A DNA stretch of 40,556 bases from a virus. This document shows, piece by piece, positions 16,681 through 33,225 of the stretch. The number at the start of each line of letters is the position of its first letter. Position 1 is the stretch's first letter. The stretch lies in IMG/VR virus record IMGVR_UViG_3300032053_000183, positions 1 to 40,556 of that record. The stretch is one strand, 5' to 3'. The translations under genes and the position numbers were made by a program. The notes beneath the pieces are model-generated. The model saw only the letters and a program-made list of their open reading frames with translations, ran no database searches and was not told the DNA's origin.

Positions 16681-16698
16681 TACGAGTCAACGAGTCAA
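16681..16698 (-). repeat. Tandem operator-like motif upstream of late promoter
   Basis: TACGAGTCAA (16681-16690) followed directly by CGAGTCAA (16691-16698), i.e. two TTGACTCGT copies in tandem on the minus strand. They end four bases upstream of the late -35 box. This placement suits an activator, or a repressor blocking RNA polymerase. Further exact 10-base copies are at 16832-16841 and 16876-16885. Confidence 0.65.
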
Positions 16699-17008
16699 TA
16701 GTATAGCCAAATCAGTTCTGGACGCTTTGCATGGGAATTATTATGTCAAGGATTCTATACGTCTTATTATTATATATATACTATGTATATAACTAAAAAC
16801 GCATAGAAAGCATACACTTGTGCTAGTTTGCTACGAGTCAATAATTAAAAAATCACTATTGACCTATTGAAGCTATACGAGTCAAAAAAAGCCCTGCCTT
16901 CAATCCACGTTTTCATTTCCACCTTGCCTTTCGGCTAAATCCTGACTCGATGGCGAGTGAATCCACCTCTCTTTTCCCTGACTCGTACGCTCTCCAGCTC
17001 CTTGCCCT

Positions 17009-17230
17009 CTATGCCCTTCTGCTTACAATACTCGAAAACTCATAGACTACTCTCAAAGTCTGCTCAACTCGCATATATATATACTCAAACTCGCATAGAA
17101 TCCCTCTTGACTCGCAGAAGGCAAATCCCATATCCACTATCTCCATCTCGCCTCTCTGTCGGCTAGCTCACGGGCCCACAAGTCATCTATCCTCCAACAC
17201 TGTACGGAGTGCAGGAATTGAAATGGGCAT
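17009..17230 (-). pseudogene. Possible broken small gene with two in-frame TGA codons
   Basis: From ATG 17230, with GGGAGG six bases upstream, the frame reads MPISIPALRTVLEDR, TGA (17183-17185), LVGP, TGA (17168-17170), then ASRQRGEMEIVDMGFAFC and on to a stop at 17009. The last 45 codons could also start at ATG 17146 behind a weak GAGAGG. The frame is open for 74 codons apart from the two TGAs. Standard TGA stops are used elsewhere in this genome, so recoding is unlikely. It may be a decayed gene or an artefact of the purine-rich strand. Confidence 0.22.
17067..17116 (+). repeat. Iteron-like ACTCGCA repeats
   Basis: ACTCGCA occurs at 17067-17073, 17089-17095 and 17110-17116, that is 22 and 21 bases apart (about two helical turns). 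The first two share the longer form CTCAA(A)CTCGCATA. Related ACTCG words occur at 16945, 16981 and 17030. Same-face spacing is typical of replication-initiator or terminase binding arrays. Confidence 0.5.
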
Positions 17231-17411
17231 CCTAGCCTCCCAGTAAATAGTGGAAATCCCCTATCAGAAACTTGTCAGTGTGATTTGAAGCTATGATTGC
17301 GGCATTTGAAGCTAATATATATTTGCGAGCTTTTGATATGGGACCATCATATGTGAGGATTGAGGATAGGCAAAATAATGAGTCAATAATTAGTGAGTCT
17401 ACTCATTCTGA

Positions 17412-17633
17412 TTAGTCGATATGATTGTGCTCGATAGCTTTTGAAGGTACCGCAAAATTCAATTCTTGACGCTCTTGTTGACGCGCAATTCTAAATTGTC
17501 TGCGCTCATATTGACTGCGCTTTGTGTCTACTCTTATCGTTGAAGGTACTGTAACATTCTTCAATAACTCCTGTATTTGAGCTTCAAGCTCATCAGTGTC
17601 AATTCTGATATTTATTGTCATATTCTGATTCAT
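17412..17633 (-). CDS. 73-residue leftward protein of unknown role
   Basis: ATG 17633 follows a TATAAT-like run and only a weak AGG site. A second ATG four codons on (MTINIRIDTDELEAQIQELL) is equally possible. The first half forms a beta strand and a helix (DTDELEAQIQELLKNV). The second half is strongly basic (KRSQYERRQFRIARQQERQ), suggesting nucleic-acid contact. It is one of two leftward genes in the control region and lies 80 bases downstream of the 203-residue gene, separated from it by an inverted-repeat arm. A small DNA-binding regulator is a guess. Confidence 0.65.
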   Translation of the reverse strand: MNQNMTINIRIDTDELEAQIQELLKNVTVPSTIRVDTKRSQYERRQFRIARQQERQELNFAVPSKAIEHNHID

Positions 17634-17672
17634 AAAATTATACCTATTTATGAGTAGTTTAGATTCCCAATA

Positions 17673-17705
17673 ATTATTGACTCAATGTAGCAGTCAATCA
17701 CGCTC
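17673..17705. repeat. Left arm of inverted repeat around 203-aa gene
   Basis: Bases 17673-17697 are the exact reverse complement of 18359-18383 (25 of 25). After one base, CACGCTC (17699-17705) is the reverse complement of GAGCGTG at 18344-18350. The arm contains the near-perfect palindrome ATTGACTCAAT and the dispersed TAATTATTGACTC word. Confidence 0.85.
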
Positions 17706-17712
17706 AAGCTAT

Positions 17713-18324
17713 TTAGCTTTGTGTTTCTTCGGTGGTAGCTTCAACGGGCATTTTGTACTCAAAACCTGTGAGATTGTGAGCCTTCACAAATTCATCAAAC
17801 TTTGCTTTTGTATCGGCTTGTGTGTGAGGATATTTGAAGGCTGCTGTAGTCAATTCTGCTGCTGTAGCATTTGCCTTTATGAAGGCTGTAACTGATTGCT
17901 CCTGGCCTTGGGCATCTACAATCTTAACATGTCCCTTACCCACTTTGCCAGTACCAGTTCCCTTCGAAGCAAGTTTTGTGATCTTGTTGATATTGACTGA
18001 TACTTTGCCTTCACTATCGACAACGTACACAACTGTTTTGACGGGCTCTTTAATGAGGTCAGCAATCTTATAGGCTTCAAGTAATTTTGAGATTGTAGTT
18101 CCTATTGTGATGCACTGTTCCTTGACTGCGTTTTGAGCTTCATCAATCTTTGCCTTGTCAAATTCTGCATCGATTTTGGTCAAGTCATTCTTTGCTTTGA
18201 GGTACTCGCTCATTAGCTTGTCAAAATCATCGGAAAACGGCTTCAAACCTTTGAGCTTTGCTTGCGATTCCTTGACTGTATTTTCCAGATTAGCTTTGCG
18301 TTCCGTAACTTCAATAACTGTCAT
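17713..18324 (-). CDS. 203-residue leftward protein, candidate regulator
   Basis: Starts at ATG 18324 with GAGGG nine bases upstream. The N-terminal 75 residues form a charged coiled coil (NLENTVKESQAKLKGLK... LMSEYLKAKNDLTKIDAEFDKAK). The middle holds beta strands (VKTVVYVVDSEGKVSVNINK), then a Gly/Lys-rich basic linker (LASKGTGTGKVGKGH). A C-terminal small domain (VKIVDAQGQEQSVTAFIKAN) follows. The coiled coil plus basic linker resembles nucleoid-associated proteins, but I recognise no family. It faces away from the early operon, has its own promoter and is enclosed by inverted repeats. That fits a regulator of the early/late switch, as inference. Confidence 0.78.
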   Translation of the reverse strand: MTVIEVTERKANLENTVKESQAKLKGLKPFSDDFDKLMSEYLKAKNDLTKIDAEFDKAKIDEAQNAVKEQCITIGTTISKLLEAYKIADLIKEPVKTVVYVVDSEGKVSVNINKITKLASKGTGTGKVGKGHVKIVDAQGQEQSVTAFIKANATAAELTTAAFKYPHTQADTKAKFDEFVKAHNLTGFEYKMPVEATTEETQS

Positions 18325-18343
18325 AATAATTTACCCTCATTAT

Positions 18344-18383
18344 GAGCGTGTTTTTATTTTGACTGCTACATTGAGTCAATAAT
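18344..18383. repeat. Right arm of inverted repeat around 203-aa gene
   Basis: Counterpart of 17673-17705: GAGCGTG (18344-18350), an eight-base T-rich spacer, then 25 bases at 18359-18383 identical to the reverse complement of the left arm. It lies in the 5' leader of the 203-residue gene and includes ATTGAGTCAAT. A separate palindrome, CTCATTATGAG (18336-18346), touches it. Confidence 0.85.
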
Positions 18384-18440
18384 CGATATATTCTTTTGTT
18401 AAAGTGCACCTGTGAGTCAAAATTTATTGACTTCAAATAC

Positions 18441-18469
18441 ATTTTACACTCTCACAATGCACTTGTCAA
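18441..18469 (-). promoter_or_regulatory. Leftward promoter for 203-aa gene
   Basis: Minus strand: TTGACA at 18464-18469, 17-base spacer, TAAAAT at 18441-18446. The start is expected near 18434, giving a leader of about 110 bases that carries GAGTCAA words, an inverted-repeat arm and the CTCATTATGAG palindrome. The upstream edge AAACTTGACAAG is identical to that of the terminase promoter. Confidence 0.78.
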
Positions 18470-18701
18470 GTTTCTGATAGCTATGATTGCAAAATATTTT
18501 GAGATTTTGACAAGGGAATTGTAAAATTTTTACGTATTTTGCGCATTGAACGTGGTGTAGCTTCAAAAGCTCTCTATTGTGTCACATGCGAGAAATTCAA
18601 GAGTGGAAATAGCGAGTTTTATTGGCAGACTCTTCTAACACTGGGGGCATAAATGCGGCGCGGAAATTCTGATTGGAGCCAGAAGGTTGTTGCGGAGAAT
18701 T

Positions 18702-18727
18702 TACGAGTCAGAATAAATTGACTCGTA
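18702..18727. promoter_or_regulatory. Perfect operator-like dyad before the early promoter
   Basis: TACGAGTCA (18702-18710) and TGACTCGTA (18719-18727) form a perfect 9-base inverted repeat with an 8-base spacer. The right half, extended by one base (18718-18727), is an exact TTGACTCGTA copy. It ends 17 bases upstream of the early -35 box, a position suited to a dimeric regulator. Confidence 0.7.
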
Positions 18728-18744
18728 GACAGCCTCAGAAACGC

Positions 18745-18773
18745 TTGACTATAGTTGTGGGGCATGATATACT
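18745..18773 (+). promoter_or_regulatory. Early rightward promoter
   Basis: TTGACT (18745-18750), 17-base spacer, TATACT (18768-18773) with an extended -10 TG one base before it. Transcription should begin near 18780, just before the first early gene. The position rules out the upstream ATG at 18755 as a start. Confidence 0.78.
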
Positions 18774-18790
18774 TATATCAGAGGCAGAAT

Positions 18791-19075
18791 ATGCCCAAAA
18801 ATAAATTTAAGGATGGTACCATGAAGGACAAAATGACAGTACAATACCCGCAGGACTTCGACCACAACCCGGCAGCCCGCATTGACAATACATTGGTTCA
18901 GAATTACTTAGAGGGATTGATTGCGAATGGTGAAGTGGACTCCATTGACTCAGGTGATGTATTGGTGAAGATAGATGAATTGGGCTTTGCAAGTATCTAC
19001 CGCTTAGAATGTTCCGTTGACCTATATAATAAAATTGACCCAAAGTTATATGATAGCATAGTGAAGGTCAGTTAA
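18791..19075 (+). CDS. First early protein, 94 residues
   Basis: Starts at ATG 18791 behind GAGG, about ten bases into the predicted transcript. An internal ATG at 18821 behind AAGGAT is an alternative that would give 84 residues. The protein (MPKNKFKDGTMKDKMTVQYP ... DNTLVQNYLEGLIANGEVDS) is acidic and soluble, with a predicted helix followed by strands (GDVLVKIDELGFASIYRLEC). First genes of phage early operons often encode host-takeover factors. No family is recognised here. Confidence 0.75.
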   Translation: MPKNKFKDGTMKDKMTVQYPQDFDHNPAARIDNTLVQNYLEGLIANGEVDSIDSGDVLVKIDELGFASIYRLECSVDLYNKIDPKLYDSIVKVS

Positions 19076-19076
19076 T

Positions 19077-19292
19077 ATGGACCCACGTTGTCAAGGTTGC
19101 CGTTATCGAACCCCGCAAAGAGTAGGCGGTTATGGCATACTATGCCAAAGTCAGGACTGCCAGTGTCCTAAGTGGATAATTCACAATGAGCTTACTTATG
19201 GCAGGCTCAGTCCTTTTGTTGAAAGCCCAAAGACCACTGACGCTCAGAGGGAAGTGTGGAAGGAGAAGTTACTGGAGGAGTTACGGATATGA
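19077..19292 (+). CDS. 71-residue cysteine-rich early protein
   Basis: Starts one base after the previous stop. The N-terminal half carries five cysteines (CQGCRYRTPQRVGGYGILCQ, then CQC), enough for one metal site, and the rest is a helical tail (DAQREVWKEKLLEELRI). The stop overlaps the next start (ATGA). A probable small zinc-binding protein, function unknown. Confidence 0.72.
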   Translation: MDPRCQGCRYRTPQRVGGYGILCQSQDCQCPKWIIHNELTYGRLSPFVESPKTTDAQREVWKEKLLEELRI

Positions 19293-19579
19293 AGGTCAGT
19301 TGTCCTGATTGTGGACTCTATATCCGTGAATCCTACTCTGAGGTTGTGGCAGAATTACTGATTCGAGACCATCAAGAATTTAATTGTAAGGAGAGTGGAA
19401 AGATGGAGTGGATATGTCCAGTTTGCAAACATGTGTTTTATTCTAATGGTCCAATGCTACATTGCCCCGAATGTATGAGCCAGAAGGCTAAGAGGGAAGC
19501 GCAGTATTGGGCTGACAAGGCAGCCGTAAGCAGGTCGATTGCGGACGATATAGTAAATAAGATATTGGAGGCAAAATGA
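19289..19579 (+). CDS. 96-residue double zinc-finger early protein
   Basis: A longer frame opens at 19256, but ATG 19289 in an ATGA overlap with the previous stop is preferred. The first finger is CPDCG...H..FNC (residues 5-35) and the second is WICPVCKHVFYSNG..LHCPEC (about 42-62). A charged helix follows (KAKREAQYWADKAAVSRSI). The C2HC plus C4 layout suits nucleic-acid or protein binding. It belongs to the cluster of small cysteine-rich early proteins. Confidence 0.75.
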   Translation: MKVSCPDCGLYIRESYSEVVAELLIRDHQEFNCKESGKMEWICPVCKHVFYSNGPMLHCPECMSQKAKREAQYWADKAAVSRSIADDIVNKILEAK

Positions 19580-19663
19580 ATGGAAGAAATTCGTAAAGGT
19601 TGCACAAAGCGCAATCATCCACCACACTCAATTTGTAAGAAGTGCCCGTTATTCAACACGTAA
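19580..19663 (+). CDS. 27-residue cysteine/histidine peptide
   Basis: ATG 19580 directly follows the previous stop and lies eight bases after GGAGG. The product MEEIRKGCTKRNHPPHSICK continues KCPLFNT. C8, H13, H16, C19 and C22 could bind one zinc. It is too short for certainty, but its ribosome site and metal-ligand spacing match its neighbours. Confidence 0.5.
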   Translation: MEEIRKGCTKRNHPPHSICKKCPLFNT

Positions 19664-19705
19664 AATTGCCCCGTAAAATAAATCGAATAGATGGAGAAAA
19701 TTATT

Positions 19706-19945
19706 ATGACCCGTCAAGAATATGAGCTAATTGCAAAAGTGGTAGCTGGTCTGGACGAGACCAAGAATTCTAAGCATGAAGTGGCGTTTGCTTTTATCAA
19801 AGCACTACAGCAGGAATATGGCAGATTCAAGGTTGAAAAGTTCTGGCATCAGTGTCTTGGGGTCAAGATGCCTACTGACGACAAGGAATCACTGGACAGG
19901 CAAGATGTTCAAGCTGAGTGGACAGGCAAGGAGTTGGGAATATGA
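19706..19945 (+). CDS. 79-residue early protein
   Basis: ATG 19706 is chosen over 19691 because GGAG sits nine bases before it. The product (MTRQEYELIAKVVAGLDETK ... VAFAFIKALQQEYGRFKVEKFW) is a compact helical protein with one cysteine, of a kind frequent in phage early operons and with no known activity. Its stop overlaps the start of the MoxR-type ATPase, so the two are translationally coupled. Confidence 0.75.
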   Translation: MTRQEYELIAKVVAGLDETKNSKHEVAFAFIKALQQEYGRFKVEKFWHQCLGVKMPTDDKESLDRQDVQAEWTGKELGI

Positions 19946-20772
19946 TACCGACCAAAAAACCGTACTTCATTAGCCAAGGCAACAAGAGTATGATAGAGTC
20001 GATTATGGCGACTCGAACTGCCCATCCAGTCAATATCCTCATAGAAGGCAAACATGGTATGGGCAAGTCAGAATGTAGTCGCCAGATTGCGGTGAACTTT
20101 GGGTTCGATGATTATATTCCAGTACCTATAGGCTCATTGCAGGAAACTGGACAACTCATGGGCCGCTATGAACTAATCAATGGCGAAACTAAGTTTGTGA
20201 GCGGTGCGTTTCCAAAAGCCGTGCAGACTCCAAATGTACTGATACACTTGGAAGAGTTGAATCGGCCAGAGTCACCCAAGGCTCTGAATGACCTATTCCC
20301 TTTACTGGACGATAGCAGGGAATTGGTGCATGAGCAACTTGGAGCTATTAAGGTGGCAGATGGGGTCGTCTTTATCGCCACTCTCAATGAGGGTTTTGAG
20401 TACACGGGAATTGACCCGCTCGATGCGGCACTGAAAGATAGGTTCCACATTCTCAGTCTGGATTACCTGCCACTGGAGCAGGAGTCCATGCTCGTCACTG
20501 TAAAAACGGGGATTACTGACGAATGGGCAAATAAGTTACTGGCTTTCGTCAATAAGCTGAGGTATGACGGGCAGGACCCAATTCATGTCTCAACCCGCAA
20601 GGTCATTATGATGGCTGAATTGATGGTCGCAGGACTTGACCTCAGAGGAGCAGTGGTCAGCAATGTCGCTTTGGACAAAGACAAGCTGGAAACAATCCTT
20701 CTGCATCTGGACTTACGTGGCGAGAATCATATAAATGGCGCACTTAATGACAGCTCTTTTGTGGTGCTATGA
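19942..20772 (+). CDS. MoxR-type AAA+ ATPase
   Basis: 276 residues. ATG 19942 (ATGA overlap) is used rather than the in-frame GTG at 19918. Walker A is GKHGMGKS (residues 36-43) and the Walker B region is VLIHLEELNR (E104/E105). Sensor 1 is FIATLNE and an arginine-finger-like DRF follows a LDAALK helix, all in the order and spacing of MoxR/CbbQ/NorQ ATPases. These act as chaperone-like remodelling motors with VWA-domain partners, and such a partner is encoded two genes downstream. MoxR/VWA pairs are known from N4-like phages, from memory. The target in this phage is unknown. Confidence 0.88.
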   Translation: MIPTKKPYFISQGNKSMIESIMATRTAHPVNILIEGKHGMGKSECSRQIAVNFGFDDYIPVPIGSLQETGQLMGRYELINGETKFVSGAFPKAVQTPNVLIHLEELNRPESPKALNDLFPLLDDSRELVHEQLGAIKVADGVVFIATLNEGFEYTGIDPLDAALKDRFHILSLDYLPLEQESMLVTVKTGITDEWANKLLAFVNKLRYDGQDPIHVSTRKVIMMAELMVAGLDLRGAVVSNVALDKDKLETILLHLDLRGENHINGALNDSSFVVL

Positions 20773-20909
20773 TGGACGACTTACAATACAAAAGAGATAT
20801 TCGAGCCAAACTCGAACTGCTGCTCCAAGAACTTCTGCCTGAGATGGAAGACCAGACCATGAACAAACTTGTTAGGAAGATAATGGAGATTTGCCATGTC
20901 ACGAAGTAA
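20769..20909 (+). CDS. 46-residue helical protein between MoxR and VWA genes
   Basis: Starts at ATGATG 20769, overlapping the ATPase stop, and ends 14 bases inside the VWA gene. The product begins MMDDLQYKRDIRAKLELLLQ and is predicted entirely helical (ELLPEMEDQTMNKLVRKIME). Overlaps on both sides tie its synthesis to the two partners, so a small adaptor between ATPase and VWA protein is a reasonable guess. Confidence 0.65.
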   Translation: MMDDLQYKRDIRAKLELLLQELLPEMEDQTMNKLVRKIMEICHVTK

Positions 20910-22686
20910 TAACTGGCGTATCAACAAAAGCTCGATTATGGCAGTCGAAGGTGCCCAAGCACTAAAAGCCTTGCGAAAGGTGGCTGGTGCTTCTGGACTT
21001 CCAAGCGATTACAAAGTCCACTTTAGCTCTGAGAGTATTGGTGCAGGGATAGACTTGGACGATAAGGAAGTTCACATTGGTGGAGGTCGCTTATTTACTG
21101 AGGCTCCAATCCCGCCTGAGAAGTTTGACGTATTGGTCGGCTTGACCATGCACGAAGTTGGGCATCAGCAAATCCAGACAGATGCAGTTTGGCGCTCACT
21201 TCAAAGCAGGATTTATCAGTTGCCACAAAACGAGAAACTGATTCTAAAAGAGTTTGTGAATGTGGGCGAGGACATAGCTATCGAATCAAGATTGGCTCAG
21301 AATCCAGCCCTGCAAGACTATGGCGATGCGCTCTTTAATTGGGCTTCTGCTCAGTCAAGAGGAGCCAAAGAGCATAAGTTGATGGAATTGTGGGTTGAGT
21401 ATGGTTTACTCCACAAAGCCGATAAACTGCTCAATTTGCCTACTGAGATGGACGCACCTATGTCTTTACTGGCTGCTCTTACGGGTTGGCTACGTAATGA
21501 CCATGGATACGATGAAAGAGCCAGCGCATACCTTGATTACTGGACTCAACTTAAAGAGGACTTCATGAGACCAGAACCACCTAAAGAGCCAAAGACAACT
21601 CAGCCGGAAAAGGACAAACTTGGTGACAACACTGATGGAACCAACACTACCGAGCCATCTGAGGAAACTGAGGACTGGTCAAAGGAATGGGGCAACGATT
21701 CTGAGAAGGAGAATGAAGAAGATGGAGAGGAAGATTCTGAGGAGAAAAAGGCGGGAAGCGGTGGGCTATCGTCAGGAACGGAAGGTGAAGATGGAGATGA
21801 AGTTACTGGAGACGAAGATGATGATGGAGAACTGAAAGCGCCATTAACAGAGAAAGATGGTGACAGAATATCTGACGACTTGGCTGATGCAATTAGAGAG
21901 GCTATGGAAAACAACCGTGAGGACATAACGAGCCAAATTCTCGATGAGTTCTCAAAACTTAGTGGTAAGCAGGAATTTTCCAATGCTATTATCAGAAGTC
22001 GAGAGTCCAAGAGCCAGCTTATACAGCCAAATTCCAATCTATGCAAGAAACTGTCAAGAATTTTGACGATTAAGAAACGGCTACAATCCCGCACTATGCA
22101 CGGGGAACAGTATGGACACATTGACAAGAGGCATTTGGCAAGAGTAGGAACTGACAAGCGGATATTCTCCCTCAAGTACAAGTTTCCTGATGGGTTCCCA
22201 AATACTCGAATCCTGATTGACCTTAGTGGGTCTATGAGTGGAACCCAAGCTACCAGTGTTCTACAAGCTGCTGGAGCCTTGCAGATGTTGGCAAATGCAG
22301 AAGTTTGGGGATACTATCAAGATGGGAATATTGGGAATATACAGTTAATTAGGCTGGACGAGGGCAAACTGGTACATCACTTCGACCCAATAGGTTCGAC
22401 ACCTTCGGGACTTGGGATTGTAGGTGTCTCGCTTGGGATGAAGAAGAATGGCTTAGTCATACACTTGACAGACGGCGAGCATAATTACGGGCAAGAGCCT
22501 TGGAATGCTCACTGGGTACTACAGAAGCGGGGAATACAACTGGTCAACTTGATATGGGGTCGTGTGACCAAGCACTATGACCTGCCGGGATTGAACTTCC
22601 GAAAGCTAGATGGACTCGCTGACTTCCCCGATGCTCTGTATGAGATACTGGTTCAACAGGCAAAGTTAGGAAATATTGGAGGCTAA
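20896..22686 (+). CDS. VWA protein with metallopeptidase-like N-terminal domain
   Basis: 596 residues. The N-terminal domain has HEVGH (residues 86-90), an HExxH zinc-site pattern, and a downstream FVNVGEDIAIES with E125 as a possible third ligand, as in DUF2201_N-like proteins. A very acidic, low-complexity linker (about 230-330) follows. The C-terminal VWA domain has the MIDAS motif DLSGSMS (D442) and LTDGEHN (D526). Partner of the MoxR-type ATPase, by analogy with CbbO/NorD. Whether the HExxH site is catalytic is unknown. Probably a substrate-recruiting or metal-dependent remodelling factor in the host cytoplasm. Confidence 0.87.
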   Translation: MSRSNNWRINKSSIMAVEGAQALKALRKVAGASGLPSDYKVHFSSESIGAGIDLDDKEVHIGGGRLFTEAPIPPEKFDVLVGLTMHEVGHQQIQTDAVWRSLQSRIYQLPQNEKLILKEFVNVGEDIAIESRLAQNPALQDYGDALFNWASAQSRGAKEHKLMELWVEYGLLHKADKLLNLPTEMDAPMSLLAALTGWLRNDHGYDERASAYLDYWTQLKEDFMRPEPPKEPKTTQPEKDKLGDNTDGTNTTEPSEETEDWSKEWGNDSEKENEEDGEEDSEEKKAGSGGLSSGTEGEDGDEVTGDEDDDGELKAPLTEKDGDRISDDLADAIREAMENNREDITSQILDEFSKLSGKQEFSNAIIRSRESKSQLIQPNSNLCKKLSRILTIKKRLQSRTMHGEQYGHIDKRHLARVGTDKRIFSLKYKFPDGFPNTRILIDLSGSMSGTQATSVLQAAGALQMLANAEVWGYYQDGNIGNIQLIRLDEGKLVHHFDPIGSTPSGLGIVGVSLGMKKNGLVIHLTDGEHNYGQEPWNAHWVLQKRGIQLVNLIWGRVTKHYDLPGLNFRKLDGLADFPDALYEILVQQAKLGNIGG

Positions 22687-22687
22687 C

Positions 22688-22894
22688 ATGGAACAAACAG
22701 TAACGCCGAAAGAGGCAGCCAGAATACTCGGCATATCGTACTCAACAATCTATCGCTGGATAAAGAGAGGCTGGATAAATGTAGTCATAATGCCTAATGG
22801 CTACATGCGATTGTCCAAGCCTGTCATTGAAGAACTGTCAGAAAAAGGAGTGGAAGATTTAGTTAGTGCTTATGCTGGGTCGGCTAAGTGGTAG
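22688..22894 (+). CDS. Excisionase/MerR-like helix-turn-helix protein
   Basis: 68 residues from ATG 22688, one base after the VWA stop, with TTGGAGG upstream. The sequence TPKEAARILGISYSTIYRWI is a textbook winged HTH opening, followed by the wing (INVVIMPNGYMRLSKPVIEE). Such proteins bind DNA as excisionases or small regulators. With no integrase here, a regulatory role or a role at the origin with the adjacent helicase gene is more likely. Confidence 0.85.
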   Translation: MEQTVTPKEAARILGISYSTIYRWIKRGWINVVIMPNGYMRLSKPVIEELSEKGVEDLVSAYAGSAKW

Positions 22895-22905
22895 GTCATA
22901 AATAA

Positions 22906-23655
22906 ATGGTCGATGTATACGATGGAGCAAACTATCTGCTCCAGAATTTCCCTGAGCCACCGTATATAATCAGCGGGGGTATCATGCCAACAGCTATGAA
23001 GGCGATTATGTTTGGGCCACCAAAGAAAGGCAAGAGTTTACTGCTCAACCAGCTTGCAATGGCAGTAATACATGGTCAGCCATGGCTCAACTTCAAGACC
23101 AATCAGAAGAAGGTTCTTTATATGAATTTTGAAGTGGGACATAAGAGCTGGCAAATACGCCTCAAGAAATTCTCAAGAGGTAATGGGATAACCTTGACCA
23201 GTAACCTCTGCCTTGTAAGTGACCTTATGGGAGTCCGCGTTGACACACCTACTGGGCAGGCAGAAGTTGAGAAGTTGATTGCGGTACACAAGCCACACTT
23301 AATTATCTTTGACCCATTGAAGAAGATTCTGAGCGCAGGAGCGACTAATGAGGAGTCAGTATTGGCAGCTACCGACTTCTGCGACAAGATGATATGGAAT
23401 TATGGAGTCTCAATCTTCATCTGTCACCACACAAGAAAGTCGAAAGTGGTTCAGGCTGGAGTCGTAGACTTGGGCTCACAAGAAATGACAGGCGTATATC
23501 ATCTGGCACAATGGGTAGATTCTATCATTAGTCTGGTACCAGTAGCCGAAGATAAGATTCGATTGGAATTTGAACTGCGACATGCGGAAGATATTGTAAA
23601 GCCAATAAACTTAAAATTGAATAGACAACTGGCAACCTTTGAGGTAGTACCATGA
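22906..23655 (+). CDS. RepA/AAA_25-like helicase ATPase
   Basis: 249 residues, RecA-fold. Walker A is GPPKKGKSLL (from residue 37) and the acidic strand after it is VLYMNFEVG (candidate catalytic Glu). Walker B is LIIFDPLKKI and a basic tip follows in FICHHTRKS. The arrangement matches hexameric RepA-like replicative helicases of plasmids and phages. Neighbours are an HTH protein upstream and a DNA methyltransferase overlapping at the stop. It is the only replicative helicase candidate. No primase domain is fused or found nearby. Confidence 0.82.
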   Translation: MVDVYDGANYLLQNFPEPPYIISGGIMPTAMKAIMFGPPKKGKSLLLNQLAMAVIHGQPWLNFKTNQKKVLYMNFEVGHKSWQIRLKKFSRGNGITLTSNLCLVSDLMGVRVDTPTGQAEVEKLIAVHKPHLIIFDPLKKILSAGATNEESVLAATDFCDKMIWNYGVSIFICHHTRKSKVVQAGVVDLGSQEMTGVYHLAQWVDSIISLVPVAEDKIRLEFELRHAEDIVKPINLKLNRQLATFEVVP

Positions 23656-24191: not shown

Positions 24192-24204
24192 GAAGGAGAA
24201 AAAG

Positions 24205-24354
24205 ATGAATAGAGATTGGACGCAACCCAAAGTCTACTGCAAGTATTGTGGTGAAGAAGCCCAAGACTGCACTTGTCAGAGAGTTCCGTTACTGGTAGCT
24301 CCAAAGGACATCGAGATTGATGCGAATTATGAGAACTGGATAGCTTCATTATGA
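24205..24354 (+). CDS. 49-residue zinc-finger-like protein
   Basis: ATG 24205 follows AAGGAG. The stop forms an ATGA overlap with the next start. The product MNRDWTQPKVYCKYCGEEAQ continues DCTCQRVPLL. CKYC and CTC give four cysteines within thirteen residues, a compact metal site, followed by an acidic tail. Confidence 0.65.
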   Translation: MNRDWTQPKVYCKYCGEEAQDCTCQRVPLLVAPKDIEIDANYENWIASL

Positions 24355-24725
24355 AATTCACATTCGCAATGGTCTACAAGCCAGCATATCAGAAGCGGTA
24401 TGGCAAATGCCATCACTGCGAGCAGGGTATAGTGGCAGGTGAGAGGATTATGATGGGCAGTGCCTTCTGGCAGTCCCATATTTTCCTCCGCCGATTACAT
24501 TTTGCATGTTACTTGGAAACCATGCAAAAAGCAGCGAGCGACTGGTTCTTCGAGAACGATTTTGTGGCAAAGAGAATGTTACCAGAACAGAAAGCCGCAT
24601 TGAATCGTCTCAGAGCCAAGAGATATTATCTAAAAAAGAATGGAGGTGACAAGAATGAATTAGATGCGAAGTTGGCGGAGGTGGAGAAGCAGATAGCTTT
24701 TATTAAAGCGGAAAAAGTAAATTAA
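24351..24725 (+). CDS. PARP-type zinc-finger-like protein with coiled coil
   Basis: 124 residues. C20-x2-C23 and H50-x2-C53 with aromatic residues between (GERIMMGSAFWQSHIFLRRL) follow the C-C-H-C layout of PARP-type zinc fingers, which recognise DNA ends or nicks in other systems. A charged coiled coil (residues 80-120) follows. It stands just before the ssDNA-binding-like gene, so a role at DNA ends or forks is a reasonable inference. Not a confirmed family member. Confidence 0.7.
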   Translation: MKFTFAMVYKPAYQKRYGKCHHCEQGIVAGERIMMGSAFWQSHIFLRRLHFACYLETMQKAASDWFFENDFVAKRMLPEQKAALNRLRAKRYYLKKNGGDKNELDAKLAEVEKQIAFIKAEKVN

Positions 24726-24739
24726 AATTTGGAGGAAAA

Positions 24740-25567: not shown

Positions 25568-25593
25568 TAAAATAAATTGGAGGATAATCAAGT

Positions 25594-25917: not shown

Positions 25918-25974
25918 AAATCAAGTGGGGTGCGCATACTGGAACCACGCACAATAAAGTAGGAGAATAAAAAT

Positions 25975-26163
25975 ATGGCAGGCATAGTAAGAAAGGACAC
26001 ATATTGCCCATTGGAATCGGGAGAAACTGGGCTTAAATGCAATTCGGCATGTGAATGGTTCATTAACGACACACGAGCAAGTCATGTTGGATGTATAATC
26101 CACAAGATTGCTTCTTCAATAGCATCATTGGAAATACTTATAGATGAAAGGATGGAATCCTAA
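25975..26163 (+). CDS. 62-residue cysteine-rich protein
   Basis: ATG 25975 follows TAGGAG. Cysteines at CPLESG, KCNSAC and GCIIH (one His) could bind zinc or an iron-sulphur cluster. The stop overlaps the next start (TAATG), coupling it to the Cas4-like nuclease. Possibly a cofactor or small zinc protein. Unassigned. Confidence 0.68.
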   Translation: MAGIVRKDTYCPLESGETGLKCNSACEWFINDTRASHVGCIIHKIASSIASLEILIDERMES

Positions 26164-26828: not shown

Positions 26829-27085
26829 CAAAAGAACAAGCTAAAGCGGAATTTGAAAAGCTGCTAGAGTGGGTCGAATCTGACAAAGACCTAATGGAAT
26901 TGGTAACTCAACCACATGTACACAACCTGCTTGCATTTATAATGTATAGATATATCATGAGCGGTTCCAGTCTGACTATTCTTAGTTCTGGAACTATGGA
27001 TGCTCTCGTCTTAGTCGCCCAAGCCTCGTACATGGCAGGATACAAGAGAGGATTGGAGACAGGCAAACTGGAGAAATTAAAATGA
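26825..27085 (+). CDS. 86-residue helical early protein
   Basis: ATG 26825 (ATGA overlap) is preferred over the earlier in-frame start inside the nuclease gene. The product (MTKEQAKAEFEKLLEWVESD ... YIMSGSSLTILSSGTMDALV) is helical and soluble, with a mildly hydrophobic middle. The stop overlaps the start of the Sak4-like gene. Role unknown. It is probably co-translated with the recombination proteins. Confidence 0.72.
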   Translation: MTKEQAKAEFEKLLEWVESDKDLMELVTQPHVHNLLAFIMYRYIMSGSSLTILSSGTMDALVLVAQASYMAGYKRGLETGKLEKLK

Positions 27086-27876
27086 GCCAAGTTATAGCAT
27101 ATCATGGACTGGAAAAAACAGGCAAGACTACGTTTGGCTTCTCATCAATCAAGTCGTTTGCGGAAGGCATACTTGTCCACTTCGACTTCGACCTCGGCAG
27201 AGAGAGAGCGATTTGGAGATTTCAACCTGCGATAGTTGAGCGTATTCAATCTGTCCAATTCGCAGAAGTCCCTACTTGGACAATGGGTTCTGGCGCAATA
27301 ACTCGTCAGTGGGCAGAGTTCGAGAGGATTTATGAGCAGGCATTGGCTGACCCAAATGTCAAAGTCCTATTCATAGATACTGGTTCACAGATGCACCGCC
27401 TTAATGCGGATGAGTATCTGGAAAACTATGTCAAAAGGAATAAGCCGAATCGGCATCAGTTACAGCAGATGGAATATCGTATTCCAAATTCCCGTACAAG
27501 GGCAAAGATAATGGCAGCAAGGCAGGCTGGCAAGCTACTAATCATAAGCCACTATGAGACTGACGTATATTCGGAGCAATTTGTCCAGCACCCTGATGGC
27601 TCAATGAGCAAGGAATCTGTAAAGTCTGGGCAGAAAACTCATGCTGGATTTGGCGAGATACCTTACCTTGTGGACTACAATTTGCAGCTACTATTACGGA
27701 ATACTAATGTAGACCCAAACACTGGCAAAGAATTGCAGCCTCCAAAGCTCAAGACAGTTGCGAGAATCCTGACACCCAATCCGCCTGATGCACTTGGTGT
27801 CGAAATACTTGAGCCAGACTTTACTAAGCTGAATCAAGTGGTTGATGGAATCAAGAAGATGAATATGGAGACTTAA
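27082..27876 (+). CDS. Sak4-like RecA-fold ATPase
   Basis: 264 residues. Walker A is GLEKTGKTT (9-17) and Walker B is VLFIDTGSQM. A basic middle (PNSRTRAKIMAARQAGKL) leads to LIISHYETD, where DNA contacts and a sensor are expected. This is the AAA_24/Sak4 type of phage ATPase, thought to promote ssDNA annealing or strand exchange with an SSB. The neighbouring nucleases and ssDNA-binding-like protein complete a plausible recombination set. Strand-annealing activity is inferred from family only. Confidence 0.8.
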   Translation: MSQVIAYHGLEKTGKTTFGFSSIKSFAEGILVHFDFDLGRERAIWRFQPAIVERIQSVQFAEVPTWTMGSGAITRQWAEFERIYEQALADPNVKVLFIDTGSQMHRLNADEYLENYVKRNKPNRHQLQQMEYRIPNSRTRAKIMAARQAGKLLIISHYETDVYSEQFVQHPDGSMSKESVKSGQKTHAGFGEIPYLVDYNLQLLLRNTNVDPNTGKELQPPKLKTVARILTPNPPDALGVEILEPDFTKLNQVVDGIKKMNMET

Positions 27877-27877
27877 T

Positions 27878-28603
27878 ATGGCACACATAGTAATTGATGT
27901 CTTTGAACCTGATTATATGGAACACCTACTCTCCGCTTTTATGCAAGTGACAAGGCATAATTTGGTTCAGCAGGGTTTGTCGGACTATTACTGGACCGCC
28001 ATTGACGGGCACTCAATTACTATCGAGAGGAAATCTTGGCTTGATTTGCTGAATAGTCTGGACAGGCTACAGAAGCAATTAAGAACGGCTACCAATCATG
28101 CAGATGAAGTTGGACTCTTGGTCGAAGGCGTAGCTGTCCCTCTTGATGGAGGCGAAATCGCCATCTACGAGCAGGGCAAAACGGACAAGTATCTCAGGCA
28201 AACAAAAATCAGTGGTACCAAATACAACAACATCATGGCATATCTATGGGAACTCGACAAGCTGGGAATCTCAGTCTACCATACCTCTACTATCAAAGGC
28301 ACAGCTTGGGCATTGAAGGCATTTGTGGATAATAGCCAAAAGACCGAACACACTTTGCTCAAGCATTATGTCCGCACAAAGGCAATCAAGTGGCAGAGTA
28401 ACCCCATGATTGAGACTCTCATGGGAATCCGTGACGACAAGGGAACTTTCATTGGCGAGAAAACTGCTCAGGAATTGGTAAAGAAACTTGGAAGCCTGTA
28501 TGACATCATGCAGTTGCAACCAGAATCCATTACCTACGAGTGCAGCGGAGTTGGTCTCGCCACAGCCAAACGAATAATAAATGCGATTAAAGGAGTGAAA
28601 TGA
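27878..28603 (+). CDS. ERCC4-type (XPF/Mus81-like) nuclease
   Basis: 241 residues from ATG 27878. The nuclease core has an IERKSWLDLL segment (E50-R51-K52, D56), which is the ERKxxxD motif of the XPF family, with D7 in IVIDVFEPD as an upstream acid. The C-terminus has a helix-hairpin-helix region (FIGEKTAQELVKKLG ... CSGVGLATAKRI), so DNA binding is by HhH, as in archaeal Hef or phage ERCC4 nucleases. It would cut branched or flapped DNA in replication and recombination. Confidence 0.86.
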   Translation: MAHIVIDVFEPDYMEHLLSAFMQVTRHNLVQQGLSDYYWTAIDGHSITIERKSWLDLLNSLDRLQKQLRTATNHADEVGLLVEGVAVPLDGGEIAIYEQGKTDKYLRQTKISGTKYNNIMAYLWELDKLGISVYHTSTIKGTAWALKAFVDNSQKTEHTLLKHYVRTKAIKWQSNPMIETLMGIRDDKGTFIGEKTAQELVKKLGSLYDIMQLQPESITYECSGVGLATAKRIINAIKGVK

Positions 28604-28821
28604 ATAAAGCAACCAAAATTATCAACGAGTCAGAGTATCTATTGGACTTTCAGAAAAAGCAGCTAATACTGGACTTGGGAATGGAATCGAATACAGGCAT
28701 AATGGATACCCTTGATTGGGTATGGTTCAAACTGTTCGGCAAGAGCATTGATAGCTTATCACCAACAGAAATGCACCGCCTAAAGCTGGCACTACAGGAG
28801 CATGGATATGAAATCAACTGA
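28600..28821 (+). CDS. 73-residue early protein
   Basis: ATGA overlap with the nuclease gene, AAAGGAG upstream. The product (MNKATKIINESEYLLDFQKK ... IMDTLDWVWFKLFGKSIDSL) is helical. It may be an accessory protein. No family recognised. Its last codons carry the ribosome site (AGGAG) of the next gene. Confidence 0.7.
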   Translation: MNKATKIINESEYLLDFQKKQLILDLGMESNTGIMDTLDWVWFKLFGKSIDSLSPTEMHRLKLALQEHGYEIN

Positions 28822-29224
28822 GCCAATGAAAATAGTCTTTACAAGTTTTCGGGATAGCATGACTATGGAAGGCATGAAGATGTCCATTGATAAACATACT
28901 CCGAAACTCTGTGCCTACCCGACATTGACGTACATGGTCATTCCCTCTGCCAGTAAGAGCGTGAGTAAGGATAGTATGGAGCGAATCTGTGAGACGATAA
29001 TGGACAACAACTGGACTCTGATTCGAGACTTCATTGTGGAAGCCTACGATACTCTTGGTGTCCGTCAGATTATTCTCTGCGATTGGGCAACAGCAGAGCA
29101 GATAGCCACTGGGAAACCTTGTATGGCAGGTACTATAGCAAGGTACATTGAGCGGGAAGTAAAGAATCTGGAGTTCACATTTCCTGTGGAGATTGAGCTT
29201 AGGGATGGAAGGAGTGCATTATGA
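28808..29224 (+). CDS. 138-residue early protein, DUF488-like possibility
   Basis: ATG 28808 is chosen because AGGAG lies seven bases before it, whereas the ATG at 28802 is too close. The sequence includes MKIVFTSFRDS near the start, then CAYPTLTYMVIPSASKSVSK, and ends with IILCDWATAEQIATGKPCMA, whose LC...C pattern near the C-terminus recalls DUF488 proteins. Activity is unknown. The likeness is weak and only visual. Confidence 0.72.
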   Translation: MKSTEPMKIVFTSFRDSMTMEGMKMSIDKHTPKLCAYPTLTYMVIPSASKSVSKDSMERICETIMDNNWTLIRDFIVEAYDTLGVRQIILCDWATAEQIATGKPCMAGTIARYIEREVKNLEFTFPVEIELRDGRSAL

Positions 29225-29511
29225 ATAATGAACGGCTACTGAGTGAGCAGGAAATATATGACATTATTGCACGATTAGATGTAGCCAAGTTTCAATCTGA
29301 GGGTATTGTTTGGCCTTTATTTGAAGCCCAGGATGCCAAGTCCATCGCTGCCCGTGATAAGTGGTGGGCCAAAACAGTAGATGCACTTATGAATGAGCCG
29401 CCTTGTTATGCCCCTGATATTGAACCTTGCACAGAACTTAATTGCGAAGTTTACCCATGTGCTTTTATGAAGTGGCAATCCCTCAAGCAGTCTTTGGGGG
29501 TTAAACAATGA
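29221..29511 (+). CDS. 96-residue early protein with four cysteines
   Basis: ATG 29221 behind AAGGAG, overlapping the previous stop. An N-terminal helix (LSEQEIYDIIARLDVAKFQS) precedes cysteines in PPCYAPDIEPC and LNCEVYPC, a possible metal site. The stop overlaps the methyltransferase start. Function unknown. Confidence 0.72.
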   Translation: MNNERLLSEQEIYDIIARLDVAKFQSEGIVWPLFEAQDAKSIAARDKWWAKTVDALMNEPPCYAPDIEPCTELNCEVYPCAFMKWQSLKQSLGVKQ

Positions 29512-30332
29512 TTCACATTGAAAGTCTAAACATGGACGTCCCATCCGAAGGCAAGTTAATAAAGTTTCCAAGTGACGTTGACCTTCGCAAGAAGTATTTC
29601 TCTGGTGCCGATAAAGGGCATCCAGCAAAAGCTAACTTGCCTATGCAAGCATGGCTAATTGAGTACCTAACAAAGCCTGGCGACACAATCCTTGACCCAA
29701 CTAGCGGAGTTGGCAGCAACATGTTCGCAACTTTACTTGGTCGCAACGTAATTCACATTGAACTGGAGGCGCATCATGTCGAAACTCAGCAACTTTCTTG
29801 GGCTTTCCTTAACCAGAATCATAAACCGACTGGGACTTTTGTACTGCACCACGGAGACGCCAGAAGGTTTCTGCCCCAAAGAGCAGACCACTGCATTTTC
29901 TCTCCGCCTTACTCGGTCAACATCAGTAAGGGTGGTGCAGCGGTTGCGAAAATGGGGGCAGAGTCGGGTACATTCGTTGGAGATTACGGTCACAATCGTG
30001 CCCAACTTGCCGACCTGAGTTACTTTAATTTGGTCACAGCCATGAAGGAAATCTATCGTGGAATCTTCGACTCACTTCCTCCCGGTGGCTTCATGTGTAC
30101 CATAACAAAGGACAGCGTAAATACCAAGTCCGCTGCATTTCGAGGATTTGGAGGCATCGAACCATACTCAGCCGATAACGTCAAAGTCTGCTATGAACTT
30201 GGCTTTGAAATGTATGAGTGGTGGGAGAGAGAAGCCAAACCCAGTCTAAGACTTCAGATAGCTTGGTCACAGAACCCCGGCATACCTCATGTAATTACGG
30301 AAGATATAATAATCTTGAGGAAACCGTTATGA
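29508..30332 (+). CDS. DNA methyltransferase, SPPY class
   Basis: 274 residues. AdoMet-binding motif I is ILDPTSGVGSN (61-71) and an acidic motif II follows in VIHIELEAHH. The catalytic motif IV is SPPY (132-135), typical of N4-cytosine or some N6-adenine enzymes. The stretch between motifs IV and the next conserved strand (GGFMCTITKDS) could be the target-recognition loop. With the NPPY enzyme at 23652 the phage carries two base-modifying enzymes and no matching restriction nuclease is seen. Likely protects phage DNA. Confidence 0.85.
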   Translation: MIHIESLNMDVPSEGKLIKFPSDVDLRKKYFSGADKGHPAKANLPMQAWLIEYLTKPGDTILDPTSGVGSNMFATLLGRNVIHIELEAHHVETQQLSWAFLNQNHKPTGTFVLHHGDARRFLPQRADHCIFSPPYSVNISKGGAAVAKMGAESGTFVGDYGHNRAQLADLSYFNLVTAMKEIYRGIFDSLPPGGFMCTITKDSVNTKSAAFRGFGGIEPYSADNVKVCYELGFEMYEWWEREAKPSLRLQIAWSQNPGIPHVITEDIIILRKPL

Positions 30333-30589
30333 TAAATTATAATGAAAAATTGGATGAACTTCATACTCTAATAGACAAGGCAGATGATTATGGGGACACC
30401 ATTATTGAAGCATTGAGAAATGACAAAAAAATAAGTCCATCAGGATTGATAGTAAGGATACAGTATATTGCCAAAATACGTGACATGTTATGGGAAACTC
30501 TTACTTTCCTAGAAGATGAAAATAATATACCAGATGCAGGAATCATTCCACCAGATAAAGTATGGGATGGTGACTGGGAGGACTTATGA
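30329..30589 (+). CDS. 86-residue acidic helical protein
   Basis: ATG 30329 is used because the stop of the methyltransferase overlaps it. The longer in-frame start lies inside that gene. The product (MINYNEKLDELHTLIDKADD ... IRDMLWETLTFLEDENNIPD) is acidic and helical. The local sequence is AT-rich relative to its neighbours, which may mark a recent arrival. Role unknown. Confidence 0.7.
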   Translation: MINYNEKLDELHTLIDKADDYGDTIIEALRNDKKISPSGLIVRIQYIAKIRDMLWETLTFLEDENNIPDAGIIPPDKVWDGDWEDL

Positions 30590-30690
30590 TGAAATGCTCT
30601 AACTGTGGCCGCAACTGCATCCGCCTTCACAAATACTACCTTTGCTGGAATTGCGGGAGAATTTATGAAATTCCCAGAACTGACAGATAA
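30586..30690 (+). CDS. 34-residue zinc-ribbon peptide
   Basis: ATGATG at 30586 overlaps the previous stop. The product begins MMKCSNCGRNCIRLHKYYLC and continues WNCGRIYEIP. CSNC and CWNC, thirteen residues apart, predict a four-cysteine zinc ribbon. Complete and short. Confidence 0.65.
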   Translation: MMKCSNCGRNCIRLHKYYLCWNCGRIYEIPRTDR

Positions 30691-30778
30691 GTCAACAGTA
30701 TTCCAAGTATTTCTACTAATATGGTACCATTACTACAGCCCCGAAGCTGTAGAATTATATGGAGAAACAAGAGGTTAA
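30665..30778 (+). CDS. 37-residue peptide, aromatic
   Basis: ATG 30665 follows GGGAG and overlaps the end of the zinc-ribbon peptide in another frame. The product MKFPELTDKSTVFQVFLLIW continues YHYYSPEAVE. The hydrophobic middle is short for a membrane helix. Unassigned, moderate confidence because of the ribosome site. Confidence 0.45.
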   Translation: MKFPELTDKSTVFQVFLLIWYHYYSPEAVELYGETRG

Positions 30779-30781
30779 ACT

Positions 30782-30916
30782 ATGAAATGCAAAATCTGTG
30801 GCAAAGACTCGGCAAATGGTCACTTAGTCCAGACCATCTTCAATGAATGTTATTGCGTGGACTGCGCCTTTGACGTAGCAAATACGGAGGAAAAAGATGA
30901 CCAAGAAGAATCGTAA
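30782..30916 (+). CDS. 44-residue zinc-finger-like peptide
   Basis: ATG 30782 lies four bases after the previous stop. The product MKCKICGKDSANGHLVQTIF continues NECYCVDCAF with an acidic tail (NTEEKDDQEES). CKIC, H14 and CYCVDC give enough ligands for one zinc. Its last 20 bases overlap the next gene. Confidence 0.62.
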   Translation: MKCKICGKDSANGHLVQTIFNECYCVDCAFDVANTEEKDDQEES

Positions 30917-31136
30917 ACAGAGGATTGGTCACAACAAAAAGGACATGGTAACACGGGAGCAGAAGCATCTGCATAGCTTGGCAGAACTTGCTGGCACCAT
31001 AATAGAGGGCGAGAAGCCCAAAGAATCAAAGTTCACTGGTAATTTGGAAGACCTGACTCCAGAGGACTTGCGAGCCGAGGCTGAGAGAATGGTAGAAGGA
31101 CTAATCAATGACATAATAAAGAAAGCGGATAAGTAA
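30897..31136 (+). CDS. 79-residue basic-helical early protein
   Basis: ATG 30897 behind ACGGAGG. The basic start (MTKKNRKQRIGHNKKDM) is followed by helices (LHSLAELAGTIIEG; TPEDLRAEAERMVEGLINDI). The stop overlaps the DNA polymerase start (TAATG), so it may be a polymerase accessory factor or simply co-translated. Family not recognised. Confidence 0.72.
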   Translation: MTKKNRKQRIGHNKKDMVTREQKHLHSLAELAGTIIEGEKPKESKFTGNLEDLTPEDLRAEAERMVEGLINDIIKKADK

Positions 31137-32800
31137 TGACTGTTGAAGCATATGGCACTCTACCAGATGGCGGCTTCGGTCAGATACTCCAAGACCTGCA
31201 ATCAGCAACAATCATTGGAGTAGATACCGAAACCGTCAGCCTGGAAGACAAGTCTATGATTGGGCTAGCAATAGCTCCATCACCTTACTATGCCGTCTGG
31301 TTCAAAGAGGATAGCCCAGTATTCATGACCGCACTTGGCATATTGAGAAATCCAAATGTCACTAAGGTTTTCCATAATTCCAAATTCGACTTCGATGTAC
31401 TTGAGCCTTATGGGATTGATGAAACCAACTTCGAGGACAGCGAGATATTGGCATACACCCTCAATATGCCGCAGAAACTATACACTCTTGGGCAGCACAT
31501 GAACTGCGCACCAATTCCCGATAAGTTCCTAACATTGAAGTATCCCAAAGGCGGCACTATGCTGGACATCTATAACTCTGACCCAGACTATACAATTCAA
31601 AAGTGTTGTATTGATGCAAGCCTTACTCTCTGGTGCTGGTACGAACTTCAACAGAATCAAGTGGACAGCTACTTCATTGACCGTGATATTGTCCACATCT
31701 TGAGGCATATGGAAGACATGGGCGTACTTGTCAATCAGGAATCCGTCAATGAGTTCTATACGGAATTGGAAAGGGATACCTCATACATGCGGCAGTTAAT
31801 ACAGACCAAAGGCTGTGACCCAAATTCCAACATGCAAGTCGGCATTGCTCTGGCTCAGAAAGGCTGGAGGCTACCATACACAAAGTCCAAACGACAACTA
31901 AAAGTTGACGAGAAAACCCTCAATCAAGTGGATGACCCATTAGCCTATTCCATACTTCACTACCGAGAGAAGGCGAAATTGCTATCCACCTATGCTACTC
32001 CACTACTTGGCTTAGACAGAGCCTATACTCATTATAATAATACGAGAGTGGTAACTGGAAGACTCTCATCTTCCAACCCATTCAACATGCAGAATATCCC
32101 TCACTATTTCAGAGGAGTTTTCTTGGCAGACAATTACTTTGCCAGTCTTGATGCTAGCCAAATCGAGCTGCGAGTTATCGCTTATATGGCTCAAGATAAA
32201 AATATGTTAGCCGCCTTCGAGTCAGGCATGGACATTCATGCCGACACAATGAATCGCATGGGCATTGCAGGAAATGTCTCTGACCCAAAGACAGCGAGAA
32301 CATTAGCCAAGACTCTGAATTTTGCAGTGACATATATGGGGGCAGAAGAAACCATAATCGAGAACGCCAAGAAGCAGAACATTATAATCTCGATGGAGCA
32401 AGCACATGATTTTAGGAACCGATACTTCCAGACATACACTGGAATCCGAGACTACATAGAATCCCAACGACAGCAGATAATAAAGTATGGTTACGTTACA
32501 ACTCTTTATGGCAGAGTTCGTTATGGCGACCCGTATAGAATTGCTGAACCTAGAACTGGTGAAGCCGTTATCCGAGAACTTTTTAATATGCCCATACAAG
32601 GTACTGCTGCCGAAATTGTAAAGAAGATGATGGTCAAAGCTGAGAAGTATGACCTGAGAATCCAAGTACATGACGAGTTGGTCTATGATGGTGACTATCC
32701 ACCTGCCAGTCTTATGTCAGGCTGCGCTCCATTTGAAACGCCTCTCGAACTCAAAGTGGGCAAGTCATGGGGCGATTTAGTCAAGGCGGAGTATAAATGA
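31136..32800 (+). CDS. Family A DNA polymerase
   Basis: 554 residues. Proofreading domain: exo I VDTET (D30, E32), exo II HNSKFDFD (D85), exo III around CCIDASLTLW, where the usual Tyr four residues before Asp is Lys. Polymerase domain: motif A SLDASQIELRV (D339), O-helix motif B R388-x3-K392-x3-F396-x3-Y400 (RTLAKTLNFAVTYMG), motif C VHDE (H511-D512-E513). It is shorter than bacterial Pol I and T7 enzymes, lacking an N-terminal 5' nuclease. It is the replicative polymerase of this phage. No primase was found beside it. Confidence 0.92.
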   Translation: MTVEAYGTLPDGGFGQILQDLQSATIIGVDTETVSLEDKSMIGLAIAPSPYYAVWFKEDSPVFMTALGILRNPNVTKVFHNSKFDFDVLEPYGIDETNFEDSEILAYTLNMPQKLYTLGQHMNCAPIPDKFLTLKYPKGGTMLDIYNSDPDYTIQKCCIDASLTLWCWYELQQNQVDSYFIDRDIVHILRHMEDMGVLVNQESVNEFYTELERDTSYMRQLIQTKGCDPNSNMQVGIALAQKGWRLPYTKSKRQLKVDEKTLNQVDDPLAYSILHYREKAKLLSTYATPLLGLDRAYTHYNNTRVVTGRLSSSNPFNMQNIPHYFRGVFLADNYFASLDASQIELRVIAYMAQDKNMLAAFESGMDIHADTMNRMGIAGNVSDPKTARTLAKTLNFAVTYMGAEETIIENAKKQNIIISMEQAHDFRNRYFQTYTGIRDYIESQRQQIIKYGYVTTLYGRVRYGDPYRIAEPRTGEAVIRELFNMPIQGTAAEIVKKMMVKAEKYDLRIQVHDELVYDGDYPPASLMSGCAPFETPLELKVGKSWGDLVKAEYK

Positions 32801-32922
32801 TTCATTCGGAAGGATTGACTCGTACAGGTCATACTCTCTATAAAGCATCTGTGCGGTTTCTAGAATCGCTTGTGTCTAAATCTATGTCCAGCACTCTACA
32901 AAGCATAAAAATCAAAATTTAG
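32797..32922 (+). CDS. Possible 41-residue peptide overlapping a promoter
   Basis: ATG 32797 forms an ATGA overlap with the polymerase stop and is open to TAG 32920-32922. It reads MIHSEGLTRTGHTLYKASVR and continues basic (SLVSKSMSSTLQSIKIKI). The same DNA holds the promoter at 32815-32844, so the frame may be accidental. Confidence 0.35.
   Translation: MIHSEGLTRTGHTLYKASVRFLESLVSKSMSSTLQSIKIKI
32815..32844 (+). promoter_or_regulatory. Promoter with embedded TTGACTCGTA motif
   Basis: TTGACT (32815-32820), 18-base spacer, TATAAA (32839-32844). The first ten bases are an exact copy of TTGACTCGTA, so a protein bound there would cover the -35 box. It would drive the zinc-finger gene at 32935, giving it separate control from the early operon. 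Confidence 0.65.
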
Positions 32923-32934
32923 AGAGGTGAAAAA

Positions 32935-33225
32935 ATGCCTGATTTACGAGTCAAAAGATGTCCTGCTTGTGGAGAAAATTTCAAGACTGAACACTCTTTC
33001 CAGATATATTGTAGCCCAGAATGTAGAGCCAGCAAAGAGTCTTTCTATATCAACAGGGAATTGCTGGAAAAGAAATGTGTAGAATGTGGCACAAAATTTG
33101 AGACATACAGGAAAGCCAGAATATACTGTTCCGCAGAGTGCAAGAGTATAGTCAATAGACGTACTGCGAAAGAAAAGTATTGCCCACATTGCGGAGAGAT
33201 TATTGTTATAGAGGACTCCAATTAA
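32935..33225 (+). CDS. Triple zinc-finger protein, last rightward gene
   Basis: 96 residues from ATG 32935 behind AGAGAGGTG. Three metal sites: CPACGENF...YCSPEC (residues 9-31), CVECGTKF...YCSAEC (about 48-70) and a C-terminal YCPHCGE half. The first two are near repeats of a CxxC...CxxxC unit, suggesting internal duplication. Likely a nucleic-acid- or protein-binding regulator with its own promoter. It converges on the late nozzle-like gene and overlaps its last 20 bases. Confidence 0.78.
   Translation: MPDLRVKRCPACGENFKTEHSFQIYCSPECRASKESFYINRELLEKKCVECGTKFETYRKARIYCSAECKSIVNRRTAKEKYCPHCGEIIVIEDSN
32945..32954 (-). repeat. TTGACTCGTA motif in first codons of zinc-finger gene
   Basis: TACGAGTCAA, the reverse complement of the dispersed 10-base motif, lies in codons 4-7 of the gene at 32935, downstream of the promoter that carries another copy 130 bases away. 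The pair could allow looping or block transcription after initiation. Confidence 0.6.

Follow-up and report, generated by a model that had tools for sequence, protein, structure and literature searches.

The question raised by this stretch of viral DNA, a record of 40,556 bases referred to below as the window, is why one 10-base word, TTGACTCGTA, recurs around the point from which late genes run leftward (from 16641) and early genes rightward (from about 18755). Exact and near copies of the word ring this divergent control region, and one outlying promoter carries it as well. Six exact copies were observed against 0.11 expected under a third-order Markov model of the 40,556-base record (Poisson tail about 10^-8.7), in agreement with the figure of about 0.1 claimed in an earlier note on this DNA, whose coordinates and strands for the six copies were all correct. 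The word ranks first among the over-represented 10-mers of the window genome. The four near copies that the note had listed are also present, each with one mismatch. The non-coding DNA of the control region, 1.3 kb, contains eight copies at no more than one mismatch, whereas 300 permuted words gave a mean of 0.09 and a maximum of 4 in the same 1.3 kb. Five of the six exact copies are non-coding. The sixth is within codons 4-7 of a 96-aa gene and so is coding, not intergenic. A scatter of many further copies through genes had been named as a point against the set; just two more were found inside genes, with one or two mismatches, which is the chance level. The copies of TTGACTCGTA are a genuine set of probable regulator-binding sites at the main control switches of the virus.

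On the late side, the first late gene is that of a 201-aa protein in the TerS position (16036-16641, minus strand), directly upstream of the TerL region. It is preceded by a promoter assigned by consensus match only, TTGACA-17-TAAGAT (16648-16676, minus strand). An exact site (16681-16690, minus strand) starts 14 bp upstream of the -35 of this promoter, and the near site TTGACTCGTT, in tandem with it (16689-16698, minus strand), starts 22 bp upstream, which gives the order TTGACTCG-TTGACTCGTAAAAC-TTGACA-17-TAAGAT, a tandem pair followed by the -35. Further upstream of the late promoter and its tandem pair are two more minus-strand exact sites (16832-16841 and 16876-16885) and two plus-strand near sites, CTGACTCGTA (16978-16987) and TTGACTCGCA (17107-17116). 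A lone copy of CTTGACATAA, the operator word of the relatives described below, is found at 16741-16750 on the minus strand. The region also contains an AT-rich repeat, TCTATGCG beside runs of TATATATA, at 16782-16808 and 17074-17100, which is a possible replication origin element; the same repeat occurs twice in a close relative, G001 (L007:7426-7454 and 7501-7529).

On the early side, the near site CTGACTCGTA (18702-18711, minus strand) and an exact site (18718-18727, plus strand) form the left and right arms of a dyad, TACGAGTCA-N8-TGACTCGTA (18702-18727), which is perfect over 9+9 bases, as had been reported. The early promoter TTGACT-17-TATACT (18745-18773, plus strand) is just downstream. 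Between the two promoters a 203-aa gene (17713-18324, minus strand) has its own promoter, TTGACA-17-TAAAAT (18441-18469, minus strand). A perfect 25-nt inverted repeat flanks this gene (17673-17697 and 18359-18383), and in G001 the 209-aa homologue is likewise enclosed by an inverted repeat, of 39 nt and 82% (L007:6434-6472 and 7134-7172), at the same distance of 661 nt. At the other end of the early module, the two outlying sites enclose the promoter and the start codon of the gene for a 96-aa zinc-ribbon protein (32935-33225, plus strand). The exact site at 32815-32824 (plus strand) overlaps a possible -35 and, as the earlier note had proposed, can act as the -35 of TTGACT-18-TATAAA (32815-32844), and the coding copy is at 32945-32954 on the minus strand. 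Upstream of its 96-aa homologue, G001 does not share this pair of sites.

On balance, this arrangement suggests that the copies are operators of one sequence-specific transcription regulator, specific to the branch of the window and either overlaid on or replacing an operator common to the whole phage group. The same word stands at several promoters above chance. A set of operators for a shared regulator is well supported by where the sites lie and how they cluster, and relatives support it too, through their -35 geometry and through another repeated word at the corresponding promoters. Bound over -35 boxes or upstream of them, the regulator would control both divergent promoters, early and late, as well as one further promoter. 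At 32815 the TTGAC core can double as the -35, and binding would most likely exclude RNA polymerase. Repression is thus the most likely outcome, by analogy with the relatives and carried to the window by position, and a repressor is preferred to an activator because the promoters of relatives in which the operator serves as the -35 are near-consensus. A sigma factor or -35 function alone was rejected as an explanation, several copies having no -10 at 16-18 nt.

Close relatives were informative about the word itself. G001, found by its TerL (77% identity) and not by the motif, is 39.3 kb long with the same gene order, and G003 (TerL 64% identity) is 41.3 kb long. The top 10-mer of G001 is CTTGACATAA, with five copies, all within the equivalent control region, which also has three sites like TTGACTCGTA. 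The balance in the window is the opposite, eight TTGACTCGTA-like sites to one CTTGACATAA. The control region of G003 has TTTACATAATG twice and TTGACATAAT once. At no more than one mismatch TTGACTCGTA was found eight times in the control region of the window and three times in G001 but not in G003 or G008-G011, nor in the 45 kb that adjoin the equivalent gene in other loci. Lack of conservation in relatives had been given as a reason to abandon the sites. It applies to the exact word, which is missing from all but one relative, but not to the positions, since TTGACATAA sits there; function can therefore be conserved though the word is not. The default operator word of the group seems to be TTGACATAAT, and TTGACTCGTA appears as a second word in the branch that the window and G001 form; in the window it has supplanted the first almost completely. 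This branch thus seems to have changed or added to its gene-control code relative to the many relatives with TTGACATAAT.

The wider group was recovered by searching viral contigs, on DNA letters alone, for CTTGACATAA occurring twice at close range. The phages returned share polymerase, methyltransferase, Sak4-like, helicase, TerS-position, TerL and capsid genes. Given that a search with a DNA word alone recovered distant relatives, the CTTGACATAA operator can be regarded as a marker of the group. A single-protein scan with the polymerase and a TerL search of genome contigs each gave no relative. The dyad pattern retrieved three unrelated viral contigs and the pair pattern of TTGACTCG retrieved 23 contigs, about the chance level. 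In an independent sample of 72 loci chosen by TerL (803 kb, with the motif-chosen contigs left out), TTGACATAA was present 62 times against 7.3 for permuted words, and none of 400 permutations reached 62. Successive copies are typically 13-16 bp apart, and in some relatives they mostly share one orientation relative to transcription (12/12 in G008). A TATAAT-like -10 follows 21 of 102 sites at 17-18 nt. The promoter-proximal copy is often the -35 of near-consensus promoters preceding TerS and scaffold/MCP, as in G008, G009 and G023 (e.g. TTGACA-17-TATAAT at G009 26214 and G023 17592); an operator copy is absent from the scaffold/MCP promoter of the window. About half of the sites (51/104) are within 700 bp of one gene encoding a 170-225-aa coiled-coil protein.

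Several other repeats and genes were encountered in these loci. Possible alternative words in L206 and L207 proved to be a 123-nt tandem repeat and an in-frame 21-nt coding repeat, and repeated words in L175, L193 and L212 were not convincing. A distant phage, G004 (L032-L034), has six copies of another repeated word, CTATAAGGGGTATATA. Several relatives have LexA-type GAACN4GTTC dyads (e.g. GAACATATGTTC) within their control region or close to it (L029:1140-1240, L200, L173 and L187). A Cys/His-rich 124-aa family without a Pfam match (24351-24725 in the window) is conserved in 9/9 complete or partial relatives compared, and in G008, G011, G012 and others its gene opens the early genes next to the control region. 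An Acidimicrobiia contig (L282:2039-3338) carries TTGACATAA nine times and encodes two small paralogues whose C-terminus is HTH-like; the coiled-coil HTH protein by this array has no relative in the phage group.

The identity of the regulator was examined among the window proteins. The 68-aa protein (22688-22894, plus strand), called an HTH protein in the earlier note, gives a real match to HTH_17 (E 5e-9, above the curated cut-off) and also matches PHROG 66, excisionase/regulator (E 1.2e-7), and PHROG 575, as expected of a winged-helix, excisionase-like protein. An ORF at 36294-36500, initially taken for it, has no family match. Among all fetched loci the 68-aa protein is present in the window and G001 only. 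Thus TTGACTCGTA and the 68-aa gene are both in these two phages and both absent from every other relative examined, although this co-occurrence counts as one evolutionary event and is weak evidence because it rests on two related phages. The most economical candidate for the regulator of TTGACTCGTA would be this branch-specific protein, similar to excisionase/regulator proteins whose targets are direct repeats. The main rival is the product of the 203-aa gene, since its family is the constant neighbour of the arrays. A single regulator from this family, encoded beside arrays across the group, would bind both words, its specificity having drifted in the branch of the window. A family member is by the control region in 34/80 TerL-chosen loci, an array or site adjoins the family gene in all relatives examined one by one, and within 700 bp of that gene TTGACATAA at one mismatch averages 4.0 copies, compared with 0.47 when the word is permuted and 0.63 over the remainder of these loci. 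The members in the window and G001 are just 39% identical, as drift would allow. Proteins of the family, 170-225 aa long, begin with a coiled coil that a glycine-rich linker joins to a helical C-terminal domain, but a DNA-binding domain was not recognised by Pfam, PHROGs, a PDB sequence search or a fold search. AlphaFold gave a good family model (pLDDT 87) and a poor one beyond the coiled coil for the window protein, and fold searches with the whole family model returned no credible match. That the window protein belongs to the wide family is probable, though the homology is weak: a profile built without the window (G000) branch does not reach it, and profile-profile comparison with hhalign gave E 1.5e-5 and a probability of 79%. 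Moreover, the family gene is present without TTGACATAA in L175, L216, L220 and L193. A single regulator of this kind is rather doubtful.

A host factor could instead bind the group word TTGACATAA, and perhaps the window word too, with the phages exploiting a host regulon. G015, a relative by its capsid protein, is contig MGMW01000003.1 of the MAG Chloroflexi bacterium RBG_13_53_26, which makes a host among the Chloroflexota possible for the window phage. In genomes of the class of this bacterium TTGACATAA makes up 297 of 1291 TTGACAWWW words (23% against 12.5%), and in two Chloroflexi MAGs hflX is immediately preceded by three copies 21 bp apart (L300:2433-2483 and L272:4139-4180). This twofold excess in the class, together with the hflX triple array, keeps a host factor as a live rival for TTGACATAA. 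The excess is about twofold against the TTGACAWWW control (a reversed-word comparison gave more), but it is smaller than in the phages (62/152) and may reflect -35 preference. TTGACTCGTA itself is no host word, at 0-2 per genome and below the reversed control in two of three genomes, and this explanation is unlikely. It is very unlikely that a replication initiator binds the copies as origin iterons, their overlap with promoters being incidental. The repeats do cluster in AT-rich non-coding DNA between divergent modules, beside the conserved AT-rich repeat, but TTGACTCGTA recurs 14 kb off at 32815 and 32945 and the equivalent word in relatives forms -35 boxes of late promoters.

Operators of a branch-specific regulator remain the preferred reading. 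The mixed orientation of the sites in the window, the operator-free scaffold/MCP promoter and the non-conservation of the 32815/32945 pair in G001 speak against it. If it is right, a phage group without a cultured member gains an operator code open to testing, two operator words coexist in one genome with dominance swapping between close relatives, and there are two unstudied candidate regulators. A more specific and tentative account may be that this large group keeps the promoter-overlapping word TTGACATAAT beside the uncharacterised coiled-coil family and that the window records a change of word, with both words in G001 and nearly complete replacement in the window, matching the gain of the 68-aa regulator. 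If true, this would be a natural record of site-by-site exchange of immunity or regulatory specificity.

Several known phage control systems can be compared with this one. Cluster A mycobacteriophages (L5, TipsytheTRex and Bxb1) have short asymmetric promoter-associated sites, with different words in related phages, and L5-type phages have more than 20-26 such 13-bp sites genome-wide, mostly oriented with transcription (PMC9283540, PMC6550527). The window is similar in that its short asymmetric sites are common to several promoters and its relatives carry other words. The L5 site contains the complement of the -35 sequence TTGACA. Unlike cluster A, the window has six exact sites in mixed orientation, two plus and four minus including a dyad, at one control region and one promoter, and none distributed along the operons. 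The note's description of a phage-wide operator or stoperator system is therefore retained for the operator set but not for a phage-wide stoperator. The set is not classed as the latter because number, spread and orientation all differ from at least 20 spread sites in one orientation, with six exact and four near copies in two clusters. No match to an immunity repressor like L5 gp71 was found among the part of the window ORFs scanned against Pfam and PHROGs. Apl of phage 186 recognises direct repeats that lie between divergent early promoters (PMC7498355). The 68-aa protein is, like Apl and Cox-type proteins of P2, a small excisionase-like winged-helix HTH protein, but the direct repeats of the window are 8, 14 and more bp apart and not one helix turn, and no integrase was found among the scanned part of the ORFs. 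No CI-like repressor was seen among the window proteins tested, and the sites are mostly single asymmetric copies and not dyads as in lambda-type CI operators, which they nevertheless resemble in placing several copies of one word, one a dyad, at divergent early promoters. The kind of control is that of phage operator sets in general, and what is new is the change of operator word between close relatives and the unstudied candidate proteins.
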